A stretch of 40,955 nt of DNA from a virus: positions 1 through 40,955 of IMG/VR virus record IMGVR_UViG_3300044530_000342. One strand, written 5' to 3'. The notes beneath the pieces were generated by a model that was not told where the DNA came from, did not search any database, and saw only the letters and a list, made by a program, of their open reading frames with translations. A program made the position numbers and the translations under genes. The stretch's first letter is position 1. Each line of letters begins with the position of its first letter. Positions 1 to 40,955 of the stretch are shown here, in pieces.

Positions 1-185
1 TCTAAACTGCCGTAAACGCTGGATGTATAATCTACCGCCTCAGTCTTATTAGTTGTTTCATTGTAAATGTAAACGGTGTAATCAGTGCCGGGGGTTACAT
101 CGCCCAAATACAATAATGAAGACTCAGTGCAGTTACCCGGTTGGATAAGGCATTTTACTTCGGTGCAATCAGTTACGCAAATCAT
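1..185 (-). CDS. Hypothetical virion-type protein, C-terminus cut by window start
   Basis: An ATG at 183-185 opens a minus-strand frame that runs off the left edge after 61 codons. The start lies 2 nt after the stop of the 192-aa gene. The visible part is Cys-rich near the N-terminus (residues 3, 7, 12 and 18) and then looks like beta structure. It continues the terminase/connector transcription unit, so a tail or connector role is an inference from position only. The partial gene at 40752-40955 is probably its other half: sharing 2 nt (tc) between the window ends joins the frames into a protein of about 128 aa. The family is not recognised. Confidence 0.6.
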   Translation of the reverse strand, partial: MICVTDCTEVKCLIQPGNCTESSLLYLGDVTPGTDYTVYIYNETTNKTEAVDYTSSVYGSL

Positions 186-187
186 GT

Positions 188-766
188 TTAACAAGTATAT
201 GTTTCAAAACAATTATCATATCCATCCAATATCACATTGTAGTCAATTACAACTAAGGCTAAATCATGCCTGAACTTTAACTCTACATTCTGGAAGATAT
301 TATCTATTTCTTTGCTATCGGTGTTTATTGTTCCCACCTCCACGTTAATAGAGTTTAGGTTTAAGGTAGTTCTTAATGAGTTTATATTGCCCCTTAACTT
401 ATGAATGATGTTAAGCCCTATTTCCTCAGGGGTGTAAGCTGTATCGTTTATCTTTGACTTTCCTACAATGGCTATACATTGCATTGGGTAGGTCATTCTT
501 AATAGATCGTTGTTAGCCCTTAACCCTTGCTCTAATAATACTTCAATGTTTGTTGATTCGGTTTGAACGTGGAATAAAACCCCACTCCTAAAGTCGTATT
601 GAGTTACAAACTTATAAGAATCTTTACCTGTGTATATCGCTGGGAATGTTTGAACCGTTCCGTCATCTTTAGTTTGGCCTATGAAATCACATAACCCTTT
701 AACCTCTTTAAATAGGTTTAAGGTTGCTATCTCTATATTGCGGTTATCAATTACATCTTTGAGCAT
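188..766 (-). CDS. Hypothetical tail-completion or connector-like protein
   Basis: This 192-aa soluble protein directly follows the gp10-like gene below the large terminase subunit. That is where siphophages often encode head-tail connector and tail terminator proteins. No membrane segment, signal peptide or catalytic motif is visible. The sequence looks mixed alpha/beta, with Cys at 188 and at the C-terminal residue 192. The ATG start is preceded, exactly 4 nt upstream, by a TAnnTTTG box (771-778). The role is inferred from gene order and size, and I do not recognise the family. Confidence 0.7.
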   Translation of the reverse strand: MLKDVIDNRNIEIATLNLFKEVKGLCDFIGQTKDDGTVQTFPAIYTGKDSYKFVTQYDFRSGVLFHVQTESTNIEVLLEQGLRANNDLLRMTYPMQCIAIVGKSKINDTAYTPEEIGLNIIHKLRGNINSLRTTLNLNSINVEVGTINTDSKEIDNIFQNVELKFRHDLALVVIDYNVILDGYDNCFETYTC

Positions 767-32608: not shown

Positions 32609-33859
32609 TTATCTTATTTCTCTAAATTTAATTGATGCATAAACTACTTGTGTACCACTTAATGATGTAGCTTTAAGAGTTAAAGTACCTAAAGATCTTT
32701 TCAATCCTGCTGCATCTAAAGTAATTGGATAACGTGATATAATAGCTGTATTAGTAACTCCTTTTGCGCCACCTGATGCAGCAACATACCCACCATCAAT
32801 AATTATAGCAGGACTTCCGCTAAGAGTTCCTAGTATATTATATTCAGAACTGCTGTATGTGCTATTTACAGCATTATATGCAGTTGTTCCTGATATGGCT
32901 TGTCCTATACAAAGCTGCCATTGAATAGCTTGATTTCCTGAATTGTAAATCTCAACATCTATATATGCTACTCTTGTTCTATTAGATATTCCATTAAATG
33001 TTGTTTTAGGTCTAAGGCTTAACATATGAGTCCCACCTGTACCTACACTAATAGCTCCTGAGTCTTGTTGAAATGTATATCCAAATACATTTATATCTTC
33101 CGAACCACCTTCTGAAATAACAGCACCACAAATAAAATTCATTGTTGTAGATACTGTTCCAGTACAAGTCATACCACATCTTACAGGAAGATTTGCTGTT
33201 TGAATATATGGTGAACTAAATAAATTAGCATGAAGAAATTCATGACAATATATTACTTCTCCACCCATATCAAATCCTATTCTTACTCTTCCTACATAAA
33301 GAGCTTGTACATCTATAACTAAAATTTGAGTTCTACTTACATCTAAAGTTAATCCACTTGTACCTGTACCATCTAATTTATCTAAATTCCAAGATGATTG
33401 AGTTACAGTTTCATTACCTGATGAACTAGCTGAATATACAACAAATTGTGGTGTTGTTCCGTTTAATTGAAATTCTATACCATTAGTTCCATCAGAATAT
33501 CCTGCAAATTTTAATGTGTCAGCTACACCAGCTATCATATTAAAAGTAAGAAATATTAATTGAGATCTACCCGGTTGATAAGGAAGGTATTCATAACTCT
33601 GCATATAAGCTTTCCCACCTGTAGGTGTAGAACTAAAAGTCATTAAAGCTTGTCTATTTGTAGAGTCATGTGTAATTGTAGCACCTGTACCGTTGGTAAT
33701 TTGCTCTAAAATAATTGGAGCTAAATCGTATGTAAATTGAGAATTAAATAAAATAAGGGGATTTGATACCCTTAATCTACTAAATGCATCCAAGTTTGCA
33801 CTATCACTAAATGATATTTCGTTACTAAGTATTGTTTGTCCTGCCGTTCCTTGTGCCAT
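32609..33859 (-). CDS. Virion-associated protein, DAFSRLRVSNP-type
   Basis: The 416-aa beta-rich protein starts with MAQGTAGQ and has ANLDAFSRLRVSNP (about 22-35), a stretch I associate with structural proteins of many tailed phages. No signal or membrane segment is visible. Its codon use differs from the flanking genes: Arg is nearly always AGA, while nearby genes use AGG and CGT more. This suggests the gene was acquired more recently, as receptor-binding genes often are. Confidence 0.65.
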   Translation of the reverse strand: MAQGTAGQTILSNEISFSDSANLDAFSRLRVSNPLILFNSQFTYDLAPIILEQITNGTGATITHDSTNRQALMTFSSTPTGGKAYMQSYEYLPYQPGRSQLIFLTFNMIAGVADTLKFAGYSDGTNGIEFQLNGTTPQFVVYSASSSGNETVTQSSWNLDKLDGTGTSGLTLDVSRTQILVIDVQALYVGRVRIGFDMGGEVIYCHEFLHANLFSSPYIQTANLPVRCGMTCTGTVSTTMNFICGAVISEGGSEDINVFGYTFQQDSGAISVGTGGTHMLSLRPKTTFNGISNRTRVAYIDVEIYNSGNQAIQWQLCIGQAISGTTAYNAVNSTYSSSEYNILGTLSGSPAIIIDGGYVAASGGAKGVTNTAIISRYPITLDAAGLKRSLGTLTLKATSLSGTQVVYASIKFREIR

Positions 33860-34440: not shown

Positions 34441-36807
34441 TTAAACTCCTCCTTTTTTCCTAAATTGTTTCAATGCAGTTTCACCACTTAATAAACCCCT
34501 GCTAATACTTTCAATAAAACCGCTAAAGTAATTAACACTTCCATCATTTGTATGATAATATCTAAATGGGTATTGCATTACACTATCAAATACATCACGA
34601 TTGACCGACAAAGTTGATTCACCTACCAATAGCCTACCTTCCTCACATTCATTCGTAGGCACTAAACCACCTCCATTATATAAGGCATCCACTCCAAAGA
34701 ATGATAGCCCGGTACTACCTACAACTCCATAAGCAATTCCTAAAACATCGAACTCACTAAAAGGTACGTATTGGTTTAACCATAATCCATTTAATCCGAA
34801 AGGTTTTTTAACATATACCCCTAGCGTATCACCCTCACTCATATAAAAAGTCCTATCTAAAACAAACGTATATGAACTTAAATCTAAAATAGTTACGGCT
34901 GCACTTTCACTTGCTATAATGTTTCCACTAACTGATACTTGAACTAACTCAACTTGCTGGGTAAAGTCATAAGAGAACCCACTTGCCCCACTGCTATTGT
35001 TTACTCTTACACTACAATAAGCATGGTAATATCCATCTTGGATAGCCGTATATTCTCCCGTTGCAGCATCATAGTTTCCATTCGTATCGAAGTTAGGGGC
35101 TGAACTATCATCGTTAAATCTTATTCTCCTGTATTGATCGTTAGGTACCGTTTTAAAGTAAGTCGTATTATCTAATACTTGATCGACTGTTAACTCACTT
35201 AAAAACTGATCGTTACCATCTGAGAAATTATTTACTACCGATTGACATACGTTTCCTAAGTGCCTTTCTATTACCCTCCAATTTGCATAAACATCGTTAT
35301 AATAATACAATTCGCTTGGTGGGTCTATCAATGTTTGAAAAGCATAAGCCGTTCCTGCACTCGATGTACTTCTATCACATTGAATTAAAAATACGTCTTG
35401 ATCTAATGAACTGTCATCAGATGGGGTGAATATTTCATAATTTTTAACTAAGCCCGTATTGTCAACTATAAAGATTTCATCGAATGAATAAATATTATCA
35501 TTATCAATTACCGAAGATACGTATGAATATTCATCGCTTAACACGTTTCTAATTAAGAACCCACTACCTATTAAACTTTCTTGGAACGTTCCACTTGTAT
35601 CGGTTATTTGTTGGTTGCTTGGCCCTCCTGCCTGTGTTTGCTCCGTAGTGTATTTGCGTTTTGTCGAACTTCCATTATACCCACTTATAGGAGGCAAAGA
35701 TTGTGATATGGTGTTAGTGTTTATTATTAACCTTCTTAATCTTAGGTCTAATTCGTTTTGGGTATTACAGTTGCCGGATAATGGAAACTCCTCTTGTACA
35801 TGATGAACTAAAGGCACTTCGCCTATCGGGAAATTATTACTTCCATCACGGCTGCACCCTACAACAACCTTGCTGTAAATCTTTGAAAGGTCAATATATT
35901 CTACTAACCCTTTTACACTATCGAAATAAACATCACTGTTTATACTTCTAAAATAGTCCTCCCGTTCTACTCTTATAACAGGCTTACCTGCACTAGATAC
36001 TTCTAAGCTAAAGTAAACATTGCAAAGTTTATGTAAGTCATCAAAGAAATCTCTAAATGATATTGTAGGGTAGCCCGTTCCATTCCTTAATTGAAGCCCT
36101 GACATAATAACCGCAAAGGCTATTTCTCTATATGTACTTGGACTTGCTAAATCATAGGTAAAAAAATCACTTTCAAAATCCACCTCGTCATCAGTCATCA
36201 TAGCTATAAGCATATTCAAAGCATCGTAAATGAATATACCATTTCTTCCATAAGGTCTAATATCTACTAAGTCATCACCTTCACTTGCTGCAAAAGGTGG
36301 ATCGGTTTTGTTAAAGTTGGCTTCCGCTATAAAGTATCTACCCCTAAAAGGTGAAAACATTTGTACGTTATCATGGGCTACAAACTTATATTGAACATCT
36401 ACCCCATTCTTACTTAATAAGTTACCACCCGTTCTACCTAATTGAAATTCTATTTCGCTGTTATTGTTAATCTTACTTAAAAAACTATTATCAGTAATAG
36501 GGCATTCGGCCATTCGTTCCAACTGATTCCATTTAACCCCGGCTAGTTTAATAATCCCTTTGGCTATACTTCTATAACTTGCACCGAAATCTTCGCTTAT
36601 TTGAATGTCTAAATCTAAATCCTGACAATAATCAGAATCATATAAGGCTCGTATAGTTTCGTAATCGCTTCCTATAAAAGTTATCGACCCTTTAATTTGG
36701 TAAAGATAGCCGTGCAAATCATAGTTTAATGTCAGTTCTTCTACTAGGTCATCTAATCCTTTAGGGCTATCAGTACACAAAGAACCATTCAAAAATATTC
36801 TTATCAT
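34441..36807 (-). CDS. Tail-tip / baseplate hub-like protein
   Basis: The 788-aa protein directly follows the tape measure gene, the place of distal tail and hub proteins. I chose the ATG at 36805-36807 because it overlaps the tape measure stop as ATGA; a TTG at 36816 is also in frame. The N-terminal 400 residues look like domains that join the tail tube (IRIFLNGSL, ITFIGSDYE). A C-terminal section (about 545-690) has a TNF/C1q-like pattern (YTAIQDGYYHAYCSVRV, then FYMSEGDTLGVYVKK), which suggests receptor contact. Confidence 0.7.
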   Translation of the reverse strand: MIRIFLNGSLCTDSPKGLDDLVEELTLNYDLHGYLYQIKGSITFIGSDYETIRALYDSDYCQDLDLDIQISEDFGASYRSIAKGIIKLAGVKWNQLERMAECPITDNSFLSKINNNSEIEFQLGRTGGNLLSKNGVDVQYKFVAHDNVQMFSPFRGRYFIAEANFNKTDPPFAASEGDDLVDIRPYGRNGIFIYDALNMLIAMMTDDEVDFESDFFTYDLASPSTYREIAFAVIMSGLQLRNGTGYPTISFRDFFDDLHKLCNVYFSLEVSSAGKPVIRVEREDYFRSINSDVYFDSVKGLVEYIDLSKIYSKVVVGCSRDGSNNFPIGEVPLVHHVQEEFPLSGNCNTQNELDLRLRRLIINTNTISQSLPPISGYNGSSTKRKYTTEQTQAGGPSNQQITDTSGTFQESLIGSGFLIRNVLSDEYSYVSSVIDNDNIYSFDEIFIVDNTGLVKNYEIFTPSDDSSLDQDVFLIQCDRSTSSAGTAYAFQTLIDPPSELYYYNDVYANWRVIERHLGNVCQSVVNNFSDGNDQFLSELTVDQVLDNTTYFKTVPNDQYRRIRFNDDSSAPNFDTNGNYDAATGEYTAIQDGYYHAYCSVRVNNSSGASGFSYDFTQQVELVQVSVSGNIIASESAAVTILDLSSYTFVLDRTFYMSEGDTLGVYVKKPFGLNGLWLNQYVPFSEFDVLGIAYGVVGSTGLSFFGVDALYNGGGLVPTNECEEGRLLVGESTLSVNRDVFDSVMQYPFRYYHTNDGSVNYFSGFIESISRGLLSGETALKQFRKKGGV

Positions 36808-39155
36808 ACCGCCCAAGGGTTTTTAGTTTGCATAACCTTACCTAATAACTTATTGTTTTGTGAAAGTAAATTGACTTGGTCTAAGCCTAATCTATAAAGC
36901 CTGTAATCATCAAAAGACGACCCTGATTGAAGTAACATTGAAGCCGCTATGTTTTCGGCAAACTCTTTTTTATGTTCACGTTCTTGGTTCATTAAAGCAG
37001 GGCTTACCCATTTATCAATAACGTACTTATCTAAGTTGCCGTTAATCCATGCATTTGCTAATCCGGGTTCGCTTAGGTTCTTATCCGTTGGTATAATTGC
37101 CTCCCCTTCATGTGCCATTACAGGTATCGTATCTTTTCCTTTTGGGTTGCCGTTAAGCTGTAAGTAATCAGTACCATCAAAGAATTGTGGAGGGGTTGGG
37201 GTTTGCAATGCGTTTACTTGTTGAATAAGTCCTCCGATAGCGTTACCAATACCAGCCGTGATCGAAGTGATACCACTAATAATACTTATAGGATCGCCTT
37301 TAGCAATAGCCGCTATTCCTGAGGCAATGGCTTGGGCTGATGACAAAGCAATCTCAGCAATGGCAATAGCCTTTTGAAACTCTAAAAAGACTGCACTATT
37401 CTTAGCAGCATCCCCAAAGATATTAGTTAACGCATCGTTAAACGTTCCAGCTAATTGAGAAAGTTCGCCATATATTTCGGCATCCCTTTCCATTTGTTTT
37501 ATGAAGTTGGCATTAGCATCCGTTTGCTGCATGGTTGCTAAGATACCAGCTAACTTAATATCGTTTTGCTTTTTAATAGCCTCATAGTTAATGTTTGTTT
37601 CCTCAGTGTTTAATAAAACTATCTGATTGTTTTCACGCATTAACGCATTGGTAGAAGTAATTGAAGCGTTTAACTTTTGGTTAGCCTCATCACGTTGCTT
37701 TATTAAGTCAATTATTTCCATCTCTTGCTTAGTATAGTCTTTACCAAGCACGATGTTATCCAGCATTATTTTATTTAAGGCAGATATTCGATTGTTCAAT
37801 TTATCATAAGGCCCGACCACTGCCTCAGTTGACTTTGCAATGTCATCATGTAATGGCTTAACCTCCTTAATCTTACCTATGTATTTATCCCAATCTTCAC
37901 GGGTTACATTCAAAAACTTTTTAGCATTTAAAAAGGTTGTTTCTAAGTCCTCATCACTTGCGTTCTTTAACTCTAAGATAGCATCAGCCGTTACCCTTAC
38001 ACTTACTCCATACTTATCGGTTAAGTCTGTTAACTGCTTAAATTGTTGTTTGTTTATTTCTAATACCTTTGATAAGTCTTCAAATGTTTGAACTAAAACA
38101 CCTTGCCTCATCTCATCTGCAAACTTTTTAAACTCCATTGCAGTTGCATTAGTAGCACCTCCTAAGGCTTCAAATTGTGCCGTGATTTCCTCATCCGTTG
38201 CCAACGATACTTTAATAACTGACTTCTCATAGTCGGTCATGCTTTCGGTTAAGTCATCGACCCCCGTTATCATATCCCTTATTCCCGTTACTACCTGACC
38301 TGCAAAAGTATTTTCTAAGAATGTTAATACATCCCCTCTACCTAAACCTTGTGCAGATTCCCAAAAGCCATTTAATAAAGGTACTAATTGACCGCCTATT
38401 GTTTCCTGTAATTCTCCAAACCTATTCTTTAACTTCGCTACCTGACCAGCCGTTGTTTCACCCATTGCAACTGCCGTACCTCCGTACTTCTCGATTAACA
38501 AGTCAGCCGCCGCCCCGTTGGCTAGTTGCTCTTTTGTCAATCCCTTAAAGGCACTATCCAATTTACCCATCTTACCTATATTCCCTTCAAAGGTTGCATC
38601 TAATTGCATTACAGCCGTGTTTAAGTCTACTCCTGTTACAGTGCTTAACTCTACCGCTGCGTCAATTACTTTCTTTATTTGTTCCTCTGTTCTACCTTGA
38701 TTCGCTAGGAATGTTTGAGCCTGTTGGATGGTGTCATCGTCAAATATAGTTGTATTTTGTAACTCACTTGCCTGAGCCATTAACCTACCTTGTGCCGCTT
38801 CGTTTCCTTTTAAAGCAAACAATAATAATTGTGCGTTTTTTTCAGCATCTATAAAAGCCTCAGCACTTGCCTTGCCAAATTGAATAATCTGTTGAACTCC
38901 AAAAGCAACCCCTAATGAAGCCGCTATTCCTGTTAGGCTGGAAGCCATACCATTAAAAGCCCCTGTTGTTTGCTTAGTTTGCTTATCCGTTTTATTGATA
39001 GCCTGAGCCGCCTTATTAAATGAGGCTGTCGTTTTATCCCCGGCATTATCCCCAGCGATCCCAACTTTTACTAAATCACCTGTTAAGGCTTTTGTATCTT
39101 GGCTGAACTTTGAAGTGTCAGCACGGTATTTAATTATGATAGTATCAGCAGCCAT
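36804..39155 (-). CDS. Tape measure protein
   Basis: The 783-aa protein sets tail length and is ejected with the DNA. Long helical stretches, an N-terminal region with the usual tape-measure start (IIIKYRADTSKF), hydrophobic Ala/Gly-rich segments (about 65-90 and 590-640) and position after the chaperone pair support this. By the rule of about 0.15 nm per residue it predicts a tail near 115-120 nm. It follows the shifted-frame chaperone with no gap. No peptidase domain is visible. Confidence 0.85.
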   Translation of the reverse strand: MAADTIIIKYRADTSKFSQDTKALTGDLVKVGIAGDNAGDKTTASFNKAAQAINKTDKQTKQTTGAFNGMASSLTGIAASLGVAFGVQQIIQFGKASAEAFIDAEKNAQLLLFALKGNEAAQGRLMAQASELQNTTIFDDDTIQQAQTFLANQGRTEEQIKKVIDAAVELSTVTGVDLNTAVMQLDATFEGNIGKMGKLDSAFKGLTKEQLANGAAADLLIEKYGGTAVAMGETTAGQVAKLKNRFGELQETIGGQLVPLLNGFWESAQGLGRGDVLTFLENTFAGQVVTGIRDMITGVDDLTESMTDYEKSVIKVSLATDEEITAQFEALGGATNATAMEFKKFADEMRQGVLVQTFEDLSKVLEINKQQFKQLTDLTDKYGVSVRVTADAILELKNASDEDLETTFLNAKKFLNVTREDWDKYIGKIKEVKPLHDDIAKSTEAVVGPYDKLNNRISALNKIMLDNIVLGKDYTKQEMEIIDLIKQRDEANQKLNASITSTNALMRENNQIVLLNTEETNINYEAIKKQNDIKLAGILATMQQTDANANFIKQMERDAEIYGELSQLAGTFNDALTNIFGDAAKNSAVFLEFQKAIAIAEIALSSAQAIASGIAAIAKGDPISIISGITSITAGIGNAIGGLIQQVNALQTPTPPQFFDGTDYLQLNGNPKGKDTIPVMAHEGEAIIPTDKNLSEPGLANAWINGNLDKYVIDKWVSPALMNQEREHKKEFAENIAASMLLQSGSSFDDYRLYRLGLDQVNLLSQNNKLLGKVMQTKNPWAV

Positions 39156-39446
39156 TTACTTTTTTTTATTTGCTTGCTGTTGGGGCTGCTTATCCTTATC
39201 TCTTTGTAACCTCTCGACCTTAAGTCGTAATAACATTAACCAATCTTTAACCGTTCCTTCTTCATACAGTTGTCTATATTGATCGTAATTATCGTTTGAC
39301 AAATATAGCAATTCTTTTTGAAAGTTGTCTATATAATTTCTTACTTTAACTCGGTATAAATGTTCTCGTATGCCTCCTTCGCTACTTGTACTTGGGTCTT
39401 GTGCAACTCCCAAGAGTTTGCGATACTTAATACTAATTCCTTCCAA
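39156..39446 (-). CDS. Tail assembly chaperone, second frame (gpT-like)
   Basis: This frame overlaps the 227-aa gene by 106 nt in the -1 frame and has no ATG in the overlap; its first possible start is a TTG at 39446. That arrangement, directly before the tape measure gene, is the classic G/GT layout, in which a small fraction of ribosomes shifts to make a longer chaperone. About 61 residues would be added after the shift, ending in a basic/Gln tail (QPQQQANKKK). The coordinates cover the open frame; the real product is probably the fusion. Confidence 0.65.
   Translation of the reverse strand: MEGISIKYRKLLGVAQDPSTSSEGGIREHLYRVKVRNYIDNFQKELLYLSNDNYDQYRQLYEEGTVKDWLMLLRLKVERLQRDKDKQPQQQANKKK
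39341..39352 (-). other. Candidate -1 frameshift site
   Basis: The upstream frame ends GAG TTA AAG TAA (stop at 39341-39343). A slip on A-AAG would move the ribosome to GTT AAA GTA and into the second chaperone frame. The adjacent stop codon could promote slipping. Other shift points inside the 106-nt overlap cannot be excluded. Confidence 0.4.
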
Positions 39447-40024
39447 TTCGGCAAGTATTCTTTTAAGGAGGCTTCTACAAAAAAAGGTATCTCAGCTCCT
39501 TTGCTTTTAAATAACAAAAGTTTTTCAGCATGGATAACCTCGTCTATTGTCTTTGGGTCTTCATCATCCCTTATGATATTTAAGGCTAACAACTCTACCA
39601 TAATATCCGGGTGAAACATTAAAGTATTTCTCCTTAGTTCTAATTCCTCAAATACCCATAACGCTACACTCACCCCTTCAATTCGATTCGTTTGTTGAAC
39701 GCTGTTCATTGCCTTCTCCAAAGACTTCTTACCTATCTCGGCTAATCGCTTTAACTCATCATGGTCTAGCCTTGCACTTAATAACAATAGGTTAGCACTT
39801 GACTGCTCGAACCTTTTTATATGTACATTCTCGGCTGTCTTATACTTGAAATAGTCATGGCCTTCGTGATGGAATAGGAACTCACATTTGTTTTTCCATT
39901 CCACCTTTCGGCTTGACTCAATACCAGCATAAATACGCTTCTCCAATTCGGGTAGTAATTCCTCTACCTTCTTATCGGACTCGTCTTTAATTAGCTTGTT
40001 TAGTTTTGCTTGACTTACCCACAT
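39341..40024 (-). CDS. Tail assembly chaperone, first frame (gpG-like)
   Basis: The 227-aa largely helical, charged protein sits two frames before the tape measure, where gpG-like chaperones are encoded. They coat and fold the tape measure protein during tail assembly. The ATG at 40022-40024 overlaps the upstream small gene by 38 nt. Its 3' end overlaps the -1 frame at 39156-39446 by 106 nt, and a frameshift probably yields a longer fusion. Confidence 0.7.
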   Translation of the reverse strand: MWVSQAKLNKLIKDESDKKVEELLPELEKRIYAGIESSRKVEWKNKCEFLFHHEGHDYFKYKTAENVHIKRFEQSSANLLLLSARLDHDELKRLAEIGKKSLEKAMNSVQQTNRIEGVSVALWVFEELELRRNTLMFHPDIMVELLALNIIRDDEDPKTIDEVIHAEKLLLFKSKGAEIPFFVEASLKEYLPNWKELVLSIANSWELHKTQVQVAKEAYENIYTELK

Positions 40025-40751: not shown

Positions 40752-40955
40752 TCATATCTCTATACTTTGAGCCGTTGGGCATTCAATGATTCCTCCAATA
40801 AACACCCTTTCAAAGGTTGCTATGTAACAAGTGTAAATGGTAGCATCAATAGTTAAGTCCTCCTTATCTGTCATGTTACCACCTTGCAATGTAGCCCAAA
40901 TGTAATAAACTCCATGAGGGTTAAAGATTAATCCATAGTCAACTAAGTCTATATC
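40752..40955 (-). CDS. Hypothetical virion-type protein, N-terminus cut by window end
   Basis: The last 67 codons of a minus-strand frame enter at the right edge and end with TGA at 40752-40754. The sequence looks beta-rich (GVYYIWATLQGG, then IYTCYIATFERVFIGG). It is probably the second half of the gene cut at 1-185: the right edge begins at a codon boundary, and merging the shared tc makes the frames continuous. No family is recognised. Confidence 0.55.
   Translation of the reverse strand, partial: DIDLVDYGLIFNPHGVYYIWATLQGGNMTDKEDLTIDATIYTCYIATFERVFIGGIIECPTAQSIEI

Follow-up and report, generated by a model that had tools for sequence, protein, structure and literature searches.

A tail-assembly-chaperone-like gene pair of uncultured phages with probable programmed -1 frameshifting at T_TTT_TTT

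The IMG/VR virus record IMGVR_UViG_3300044530_000342, analyzed over its whole length of 40,955 nt and referred to here as the window, very probably carries a tail-assembly-chaperone-like gene pair that is expressed by programmed -1 ribosomal frameshifting at a T_TTT_TTT heptamer, as judged from its sequence and from those of its relatives. Most ribosomes would read the upstream frame to its stop and produce a 227-amino acid, G-like protein. A minority would slip back by one base on the heptamer while Phe codons occupy both the P and the A site, and would produce a 289-amino acid G-T fusion. By analogy with gpG and gpGT of phage lambda, the G part would be expected to bind the product of the neighboring tape-measure gene, and the T part to recruit tail subunits. 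A programmed -1 frameshift in these genes had been suggested in a preliminary description of the DNA, and the relatives support it well: a slip site is present in 68 of 69 distinct sequences, the same filter passes 0 of 316 control frames, and third-position variation drops after the site.

Two frames in front of a tape-measure-like gene

The upstream frame (39341..40024, minus strand) encodes the G-like protein, homologues of which were found in 122 loci comprising 69 distinct sequences. Codons 1-182 of this frame would be common to the 227-amino acid protein and the predicted fusion. The T-like frame (39156..39491, minus strand, stop to stop) lies in -1 register to it, as previously described, and contributes 107 codons after the slip, so that the fusion of 182 + 107 codons would be 289 amino acids long. 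It is bounded on its 5' side by a TGA at 39492..39494 (minus strand), and its similarity to a related locus, L028, extends from residue 3 on (E about 1e-10). Two further features of the preliminary description agree with the sequence: the upstream frame ends TTA AAG TAA, and the overlap contains no ATG of the second frame, which first has one 104 nt beyond the upstream stop. The overlap itself, put at 106 nt in that description, measures 151 nt from stop to stop (39341..39491, minus strand); the smaller figure counts from a TTG at 39446, the codon from which a second ORF of 96 amino acids can be read.

The pair had also been said to stand directly before the tape measure gene, and the T stop is indeed followed, with a gap of 0 nt, by the ATG of a tape-measure-like gene of 783 amino acids (36804..39155, minus strand). 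Its product is probably, not certainly, a tape measure, because the match to phrog_339 (tail length tape measure, E 1.4e-4) is weak and the score against Pfam TMP_2 falls below the family cut-off. The corresponding junction has a gap of 1 nt in L028 and an overlap of 8 nt in L083. No long ORF starts within 80 nt downstream of the T stop in clades B and C; thus, direct adjacency to the tape measure is not universal. At the end of the tape-measure-like gene (36804-36829), an in-frame AAACCCT occurs 19 nt before the stop and the next gene is in -1 register, which is probably due to chance because that gene has its own ATG.

An hmmscan of PHROGs and Pfam (the latter without the T alignment) placed neither protein of the pair in a named family; the best matches were to phrog_2759 (E 0.003) and phrog_13652 (E 0.005), both of unknown function. 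Structural models of the two proteins (pLDDT 72.9 and 68.6) gave no fold match at E 0.001, the best match in BFVD being to an uncharacterised protein (E 0.017). With no match to a named family or known fold for either protein, it is position and architecture that suggest a chaperone role for the pair.

Two other observations concern the window genome as a whole. A 131-amino acid ORF of L003 (4009-4404) matches in length the 64- and 67-amino acid ORFs that are cut at the two ends of the window (1-194 and 40752-40955); thus, the genome is probably circular or circularly permuted, with the terminase upstream of the tail genes. Elsewhere, at 32609-33859, the window encodes a phrog_1645 virion protein that is at least 80% identical in 13 of 22 other loci (the identical contig aside), yet none of these loci gave a match to the tail genes tested. 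This protein seems to move between phages.

The slip site and its retention among relatives

The zero frame of the upstream gene contains a canonical X_XXY_YYZ heptamer, T_TTT_TTT (39479..39485, minus strand), within the codons CCT TTT TTT GTA. Only six bases separate it from the bounding TGA, which places it right where the open -1 frame begins. The preliminary description, which had reported no classic heptamer, was mistaken on this point, and its two further suggestions, that slippage occurs at the A-AAG beside the upstream stop and that the mechanism may be unusual, find no support: the canonical heptamer lies about 145 nt earlier, is kept across the family, and is the place where dual-coding constraint begins in the relatives.

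A run of seven T is not in itself rare in this genome, the probability of an in-frame heptamer being 0.33 given Pro-Phe-Phe at that place. The length of the open -1 frame is far less common. When the upstream gene was recoded synonymously 20,000 times, with the protein fixed and the codon usage of the contig, the -1 frame was open over the 44 post-slip codons in 0.33% of the recodings; the same fraction was 0.18% for L028, 1.7% for L050, 5.5% for L083, 10% for L057, and 2.8% for L084. The 54 listed ORFs of the window (12,733 codons) contain 93 in-frame XXXYYYZ heptamers, and at six of these 93 the -1 frame outlasts the stop of the host gene; the heptamer is 145 nt from that stop here vs. 16-73 nt in the other five. 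Multiplication of heptamer probabilities over lineages was dropped because the lineages share ancestry, as seen in the terminase tree.

Scans of IMG/VR recovered upstream-protein homologues at the 122 loci, and merging left the 69 distinct sequences, window included. To pass the filter, a slip site had to read TTTTTTT, CCCTTTT, or AAAAAAA, lie within the final 260 nt of the frame, and have a -1 frame open past the frame end; AAAAAAA was added after the A10 run of L194 had been seen. All sequences but one (68 of 69) contain a slip heptamer in frame, and the -1 frame read from it continues past the upstream frame's end or as far as the contig reaches; six of these 68 end at or near a contig end, where the full T frame cannot be shown. 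The single miss, L191, ends before the slip site. The positives comprise 34 T8, 27 T9, three T7, three C3T4, and one A10 site, located 142-187 nt before the end of the upstream frame in sequences where that end is uncut by the contig. The idea was formed on 25 of the 69 sequences, and 43 of the 44 added later fit it, the A10 type having been admitted post hoc. As a control, the same filter was applied to 316 further ORFs from these loci, each 600 nt or longer, and none passed.

The codon position of the site is homologous according to alignments A1 and A5 and, for the other sequences, by eye; L194 is displaced by several codons upstream. L028 and L050 instead carry C_CCT_TTT, displaced by one codon upstream relative to the T run, and the stop that bounds the -1 frame lies immediately next to it in the L028 group. 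Read at the level of sequence, the slippery property is retained in these two lineages while the bases and codons change. The distant relative L194 (1853-2572) has A10 in place of the T run, several codons upstream and at the start of the open -1 frame. The contig L039 / L041, with a T frame that ends at L039 7963, differs by one base over 431 nt from two otherwise identical contigs; the change creates a premature stop in the T frame and would reflect either a broken variant or an assembly error. A tblastn search of 50,697 phage records with either the upstream protein or the tape measure as query had no match, and scans of genome_contigs for relatives found none.

This distribution bears on whether the two frames result from a single gene interrupted by a sequencing or assembly indel in the T run, an error named at the outset as a possible refutation. 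Homopolymers are the usual place of such errors, but the same -1 arrangement recurs in 68 of 69 distinct sequences whose sites vary, and a second IMG/VR contig has exactly the window's site, which contradicts an indel and leaves it exceedingly improbable.

Dual-coding constraint and the position of the shift

Translation of the -1 frame from the T run onward would be expected to leave the upstream frame with fewer third-position changes after the run, and such a drop was seen in three clades of relatives. Third positions varied in 110 of 150 codons before the slip and 23 of 48 after it in clade B (p 0.0015; 11 sequences), and in 49 of 150 before vs. 6 of 59 after in clade C (p 0.0008; four sequences), with the contig-cut L053, L056, L093, and L034 excluded. 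In clade D, represented by 33 distinct sequences after exclusion of L179, L181, L189, and L191, the values were 99 of 110 and 34 of 57 (p 1e-5), and the drop sits at the slip codon itself, with 10 of the 11 codons just before it variable vs. 4 of 11 from the slip codon on. For clade C, the first 30 post-slip codons taken alone gave no significant difference (p 0.12). The -1 peptides were also compared with synonymous recodings. Those of L028 resemble the peptides of L050 and L083 beyond the recodings (fractions 0.0000-0.0003), the pair L050-L083 is borderline (0.058 and 0.050), and the overlap peptide of the window is weakly above the synonymous expectation, at 0.011 to 0.46 depending on pair and direction.

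Slippage further downstream, either at the terminal TTA AAG TAA or at an A_AAA_AAG that some relatives have about 100 nt beyond the T run, was also considered. The latter is the stronger shifter in E. coli (PMC5009743), and L050, L083, and some clade B sequences carry it; however, it is missing from the window, L028, clade C, L084, and the rest of clade B. Conservation among relatives, which the preliminary description had proposed as a check, holds for the slip heptamer with its -1 frame and fails for TTA AAG TAA, which reads, for example, ATA AAG TCT, ATA AGG TCT, or ATA AAT GCT elsewhere. Moreover, the third-position constraint starts at the T run, and a -1 stop lies only 0-42 nt upstream of that run in the 41 loci compared. 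A downstream shift is accordingly very unlikely.

We consider it similarly improbable that the second frame is a separate gene, translated independently from the TTG at 39446 or another start, perhaps by translational coupling. The 96-amino acid ORF does exist, and clade B has ATGs in the second frame before the upstream stop, but the 11 sequences compared have no start codon at a conserved place, and the constraint begins upstream of the possible starts.

Mechanism of slippage and relation to known systems

The product of such a shift might also arise by transcriptional slippage, in which bases are inserted or omitted by RNA polymerase at the T run, so that normal translation of the altered mRNA enters the -1 frame. 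T7-T9 or A10 runs make up 65 of the 68 positive sites, bacterial RNA polymerase slips efficiently at nine A or T (PMC5009743), and the slip site is the sole T run of at least nine on its strand in all five T9 loci checked. The window site, however, is only T7, and C3T4 is present at the homologous place in 3 of 68 sequences from two lineages, L028 and L050; a mixed site of this kind would suit tRNA slippage and not polymerase slippage. Polymerase slippage is therefore an improbable explanation, although the T9 or A10 lineages could use it instead. Somewhat less improbable, but still unlikely, is that one family employs two mechanisms, with tandem tRNA slippage at C_CCT_TTT and T7, RNA-polymerase slippage at T9 and A10, and the same two-protein output. 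A precedent for two slippage mechanisms acting on one gene in two organisms is provided by dnaX, whose second frame is reached by ribosomal slippage at A_AAA_AAG in E. coli and by polymerase slippage at T9 in Thermus (PMC5009743). The dnaX gene is a host gene, and its shift in E. coli leads to a shorter product (PMC4066793), whereas a longer fusion is predicted here, within one phage gene family.

Ribosomal slippage at the heptamer, which we favor, agrees with the general tendency of UUN codons, and of motifs in which X and Z are all pyrimidine, to be more shift-prone in E. coli (PMC4066793). U_UUU_UUU itself shifts far more weakly than A_AAA_AAG in that organism (PMC5009743). The ratio of gpG to gpGT in lambda is 30:1 (PMC5009743), so a weak slip site would suit the role proposed here, and the product ratio may likewise be dominated by the short form.

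Stimulatory elements were sought around the site. No downstream stem above background was found in the window, and a conserved stem-loop is not supported there; L028 and L050 have a stem 6-8 nt past the site that ranks at about the 10% level among gene positions. A Shine-Dalgarno-like word, AAAGGAG (39496..39502, minus strand), lies 10 nt before the heptamer, and its role is doubtful. Similar words occur 13-16 nt upstream in six T7 and C3T4 contigs compared and are absent from the 24 T9 contigs compared, except for one GGGAG at -19. A Shine-Dalgarno stimulator is doubtful, since the SD-bearing T7 and C3T4 contigs, with their four lineages, group together as one clade in the terminase tree (support 91/97) and the words may stem from Gly codons. 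At the gene starts of the window, SD-like words precede only 3 of 48, with a background of 0.11 per 15-nt stretch; this scarcity would fit a host that does not use SD, such as one of the Bacteroidota.

The layout resembles that of lambda gpG/gpGT, in which two frames in -1 register also precede the tape-measure gene and yield a short product and a longer fusion. The slip site is T_TTT_TTT here and G_GGA_AAG in lambda; furthermore, the shift in the window occurs 48 codons (stop counted) before the end of G, unlike that of lambda, and the two pairs have no detectable relation in sequence or fold. Across long-tailed phages, the gpG/gpGT arrangement is widely conserved even though sequence similarity is low (PMC5009743). 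Among the -1 motifs listed for the PRFect predictor are 'six' and 'threethree' (PMC10885494), and the homopolymer site would belong to 'six', judged by the name of the motif only; no phage of this tail-chaperone family was found in the available parts of that article. The kind of slip is already known, then, and the family itself is unnamed in the databases searched. Our literature search recognized no paper on this family. Poly-U sites may be included in Xu, Hendrix and Duda (2004), reportedly a paper on conserved tail-gene frameshifts.

For annotation, the 96-amino acid second ORF should be merged with the upstream gene as a single frameshifted product. The uncultured phages analyzed here contribute an unnamed family of tail-chaperone-like pairs in which the slip site can be read in the sequence. 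If the two-mechanism reading were true, the overlapping -1 protein would have been kept through changes in the base, length, and codon position of the site. The family offers a natural series, C3T4, T7, T8, T9, and A10, for the comparison of ribosomal and transcriptional slippage, and it comes with a phage, that of the window, whose gene starts show almost no Shine-Dalgarno signal.
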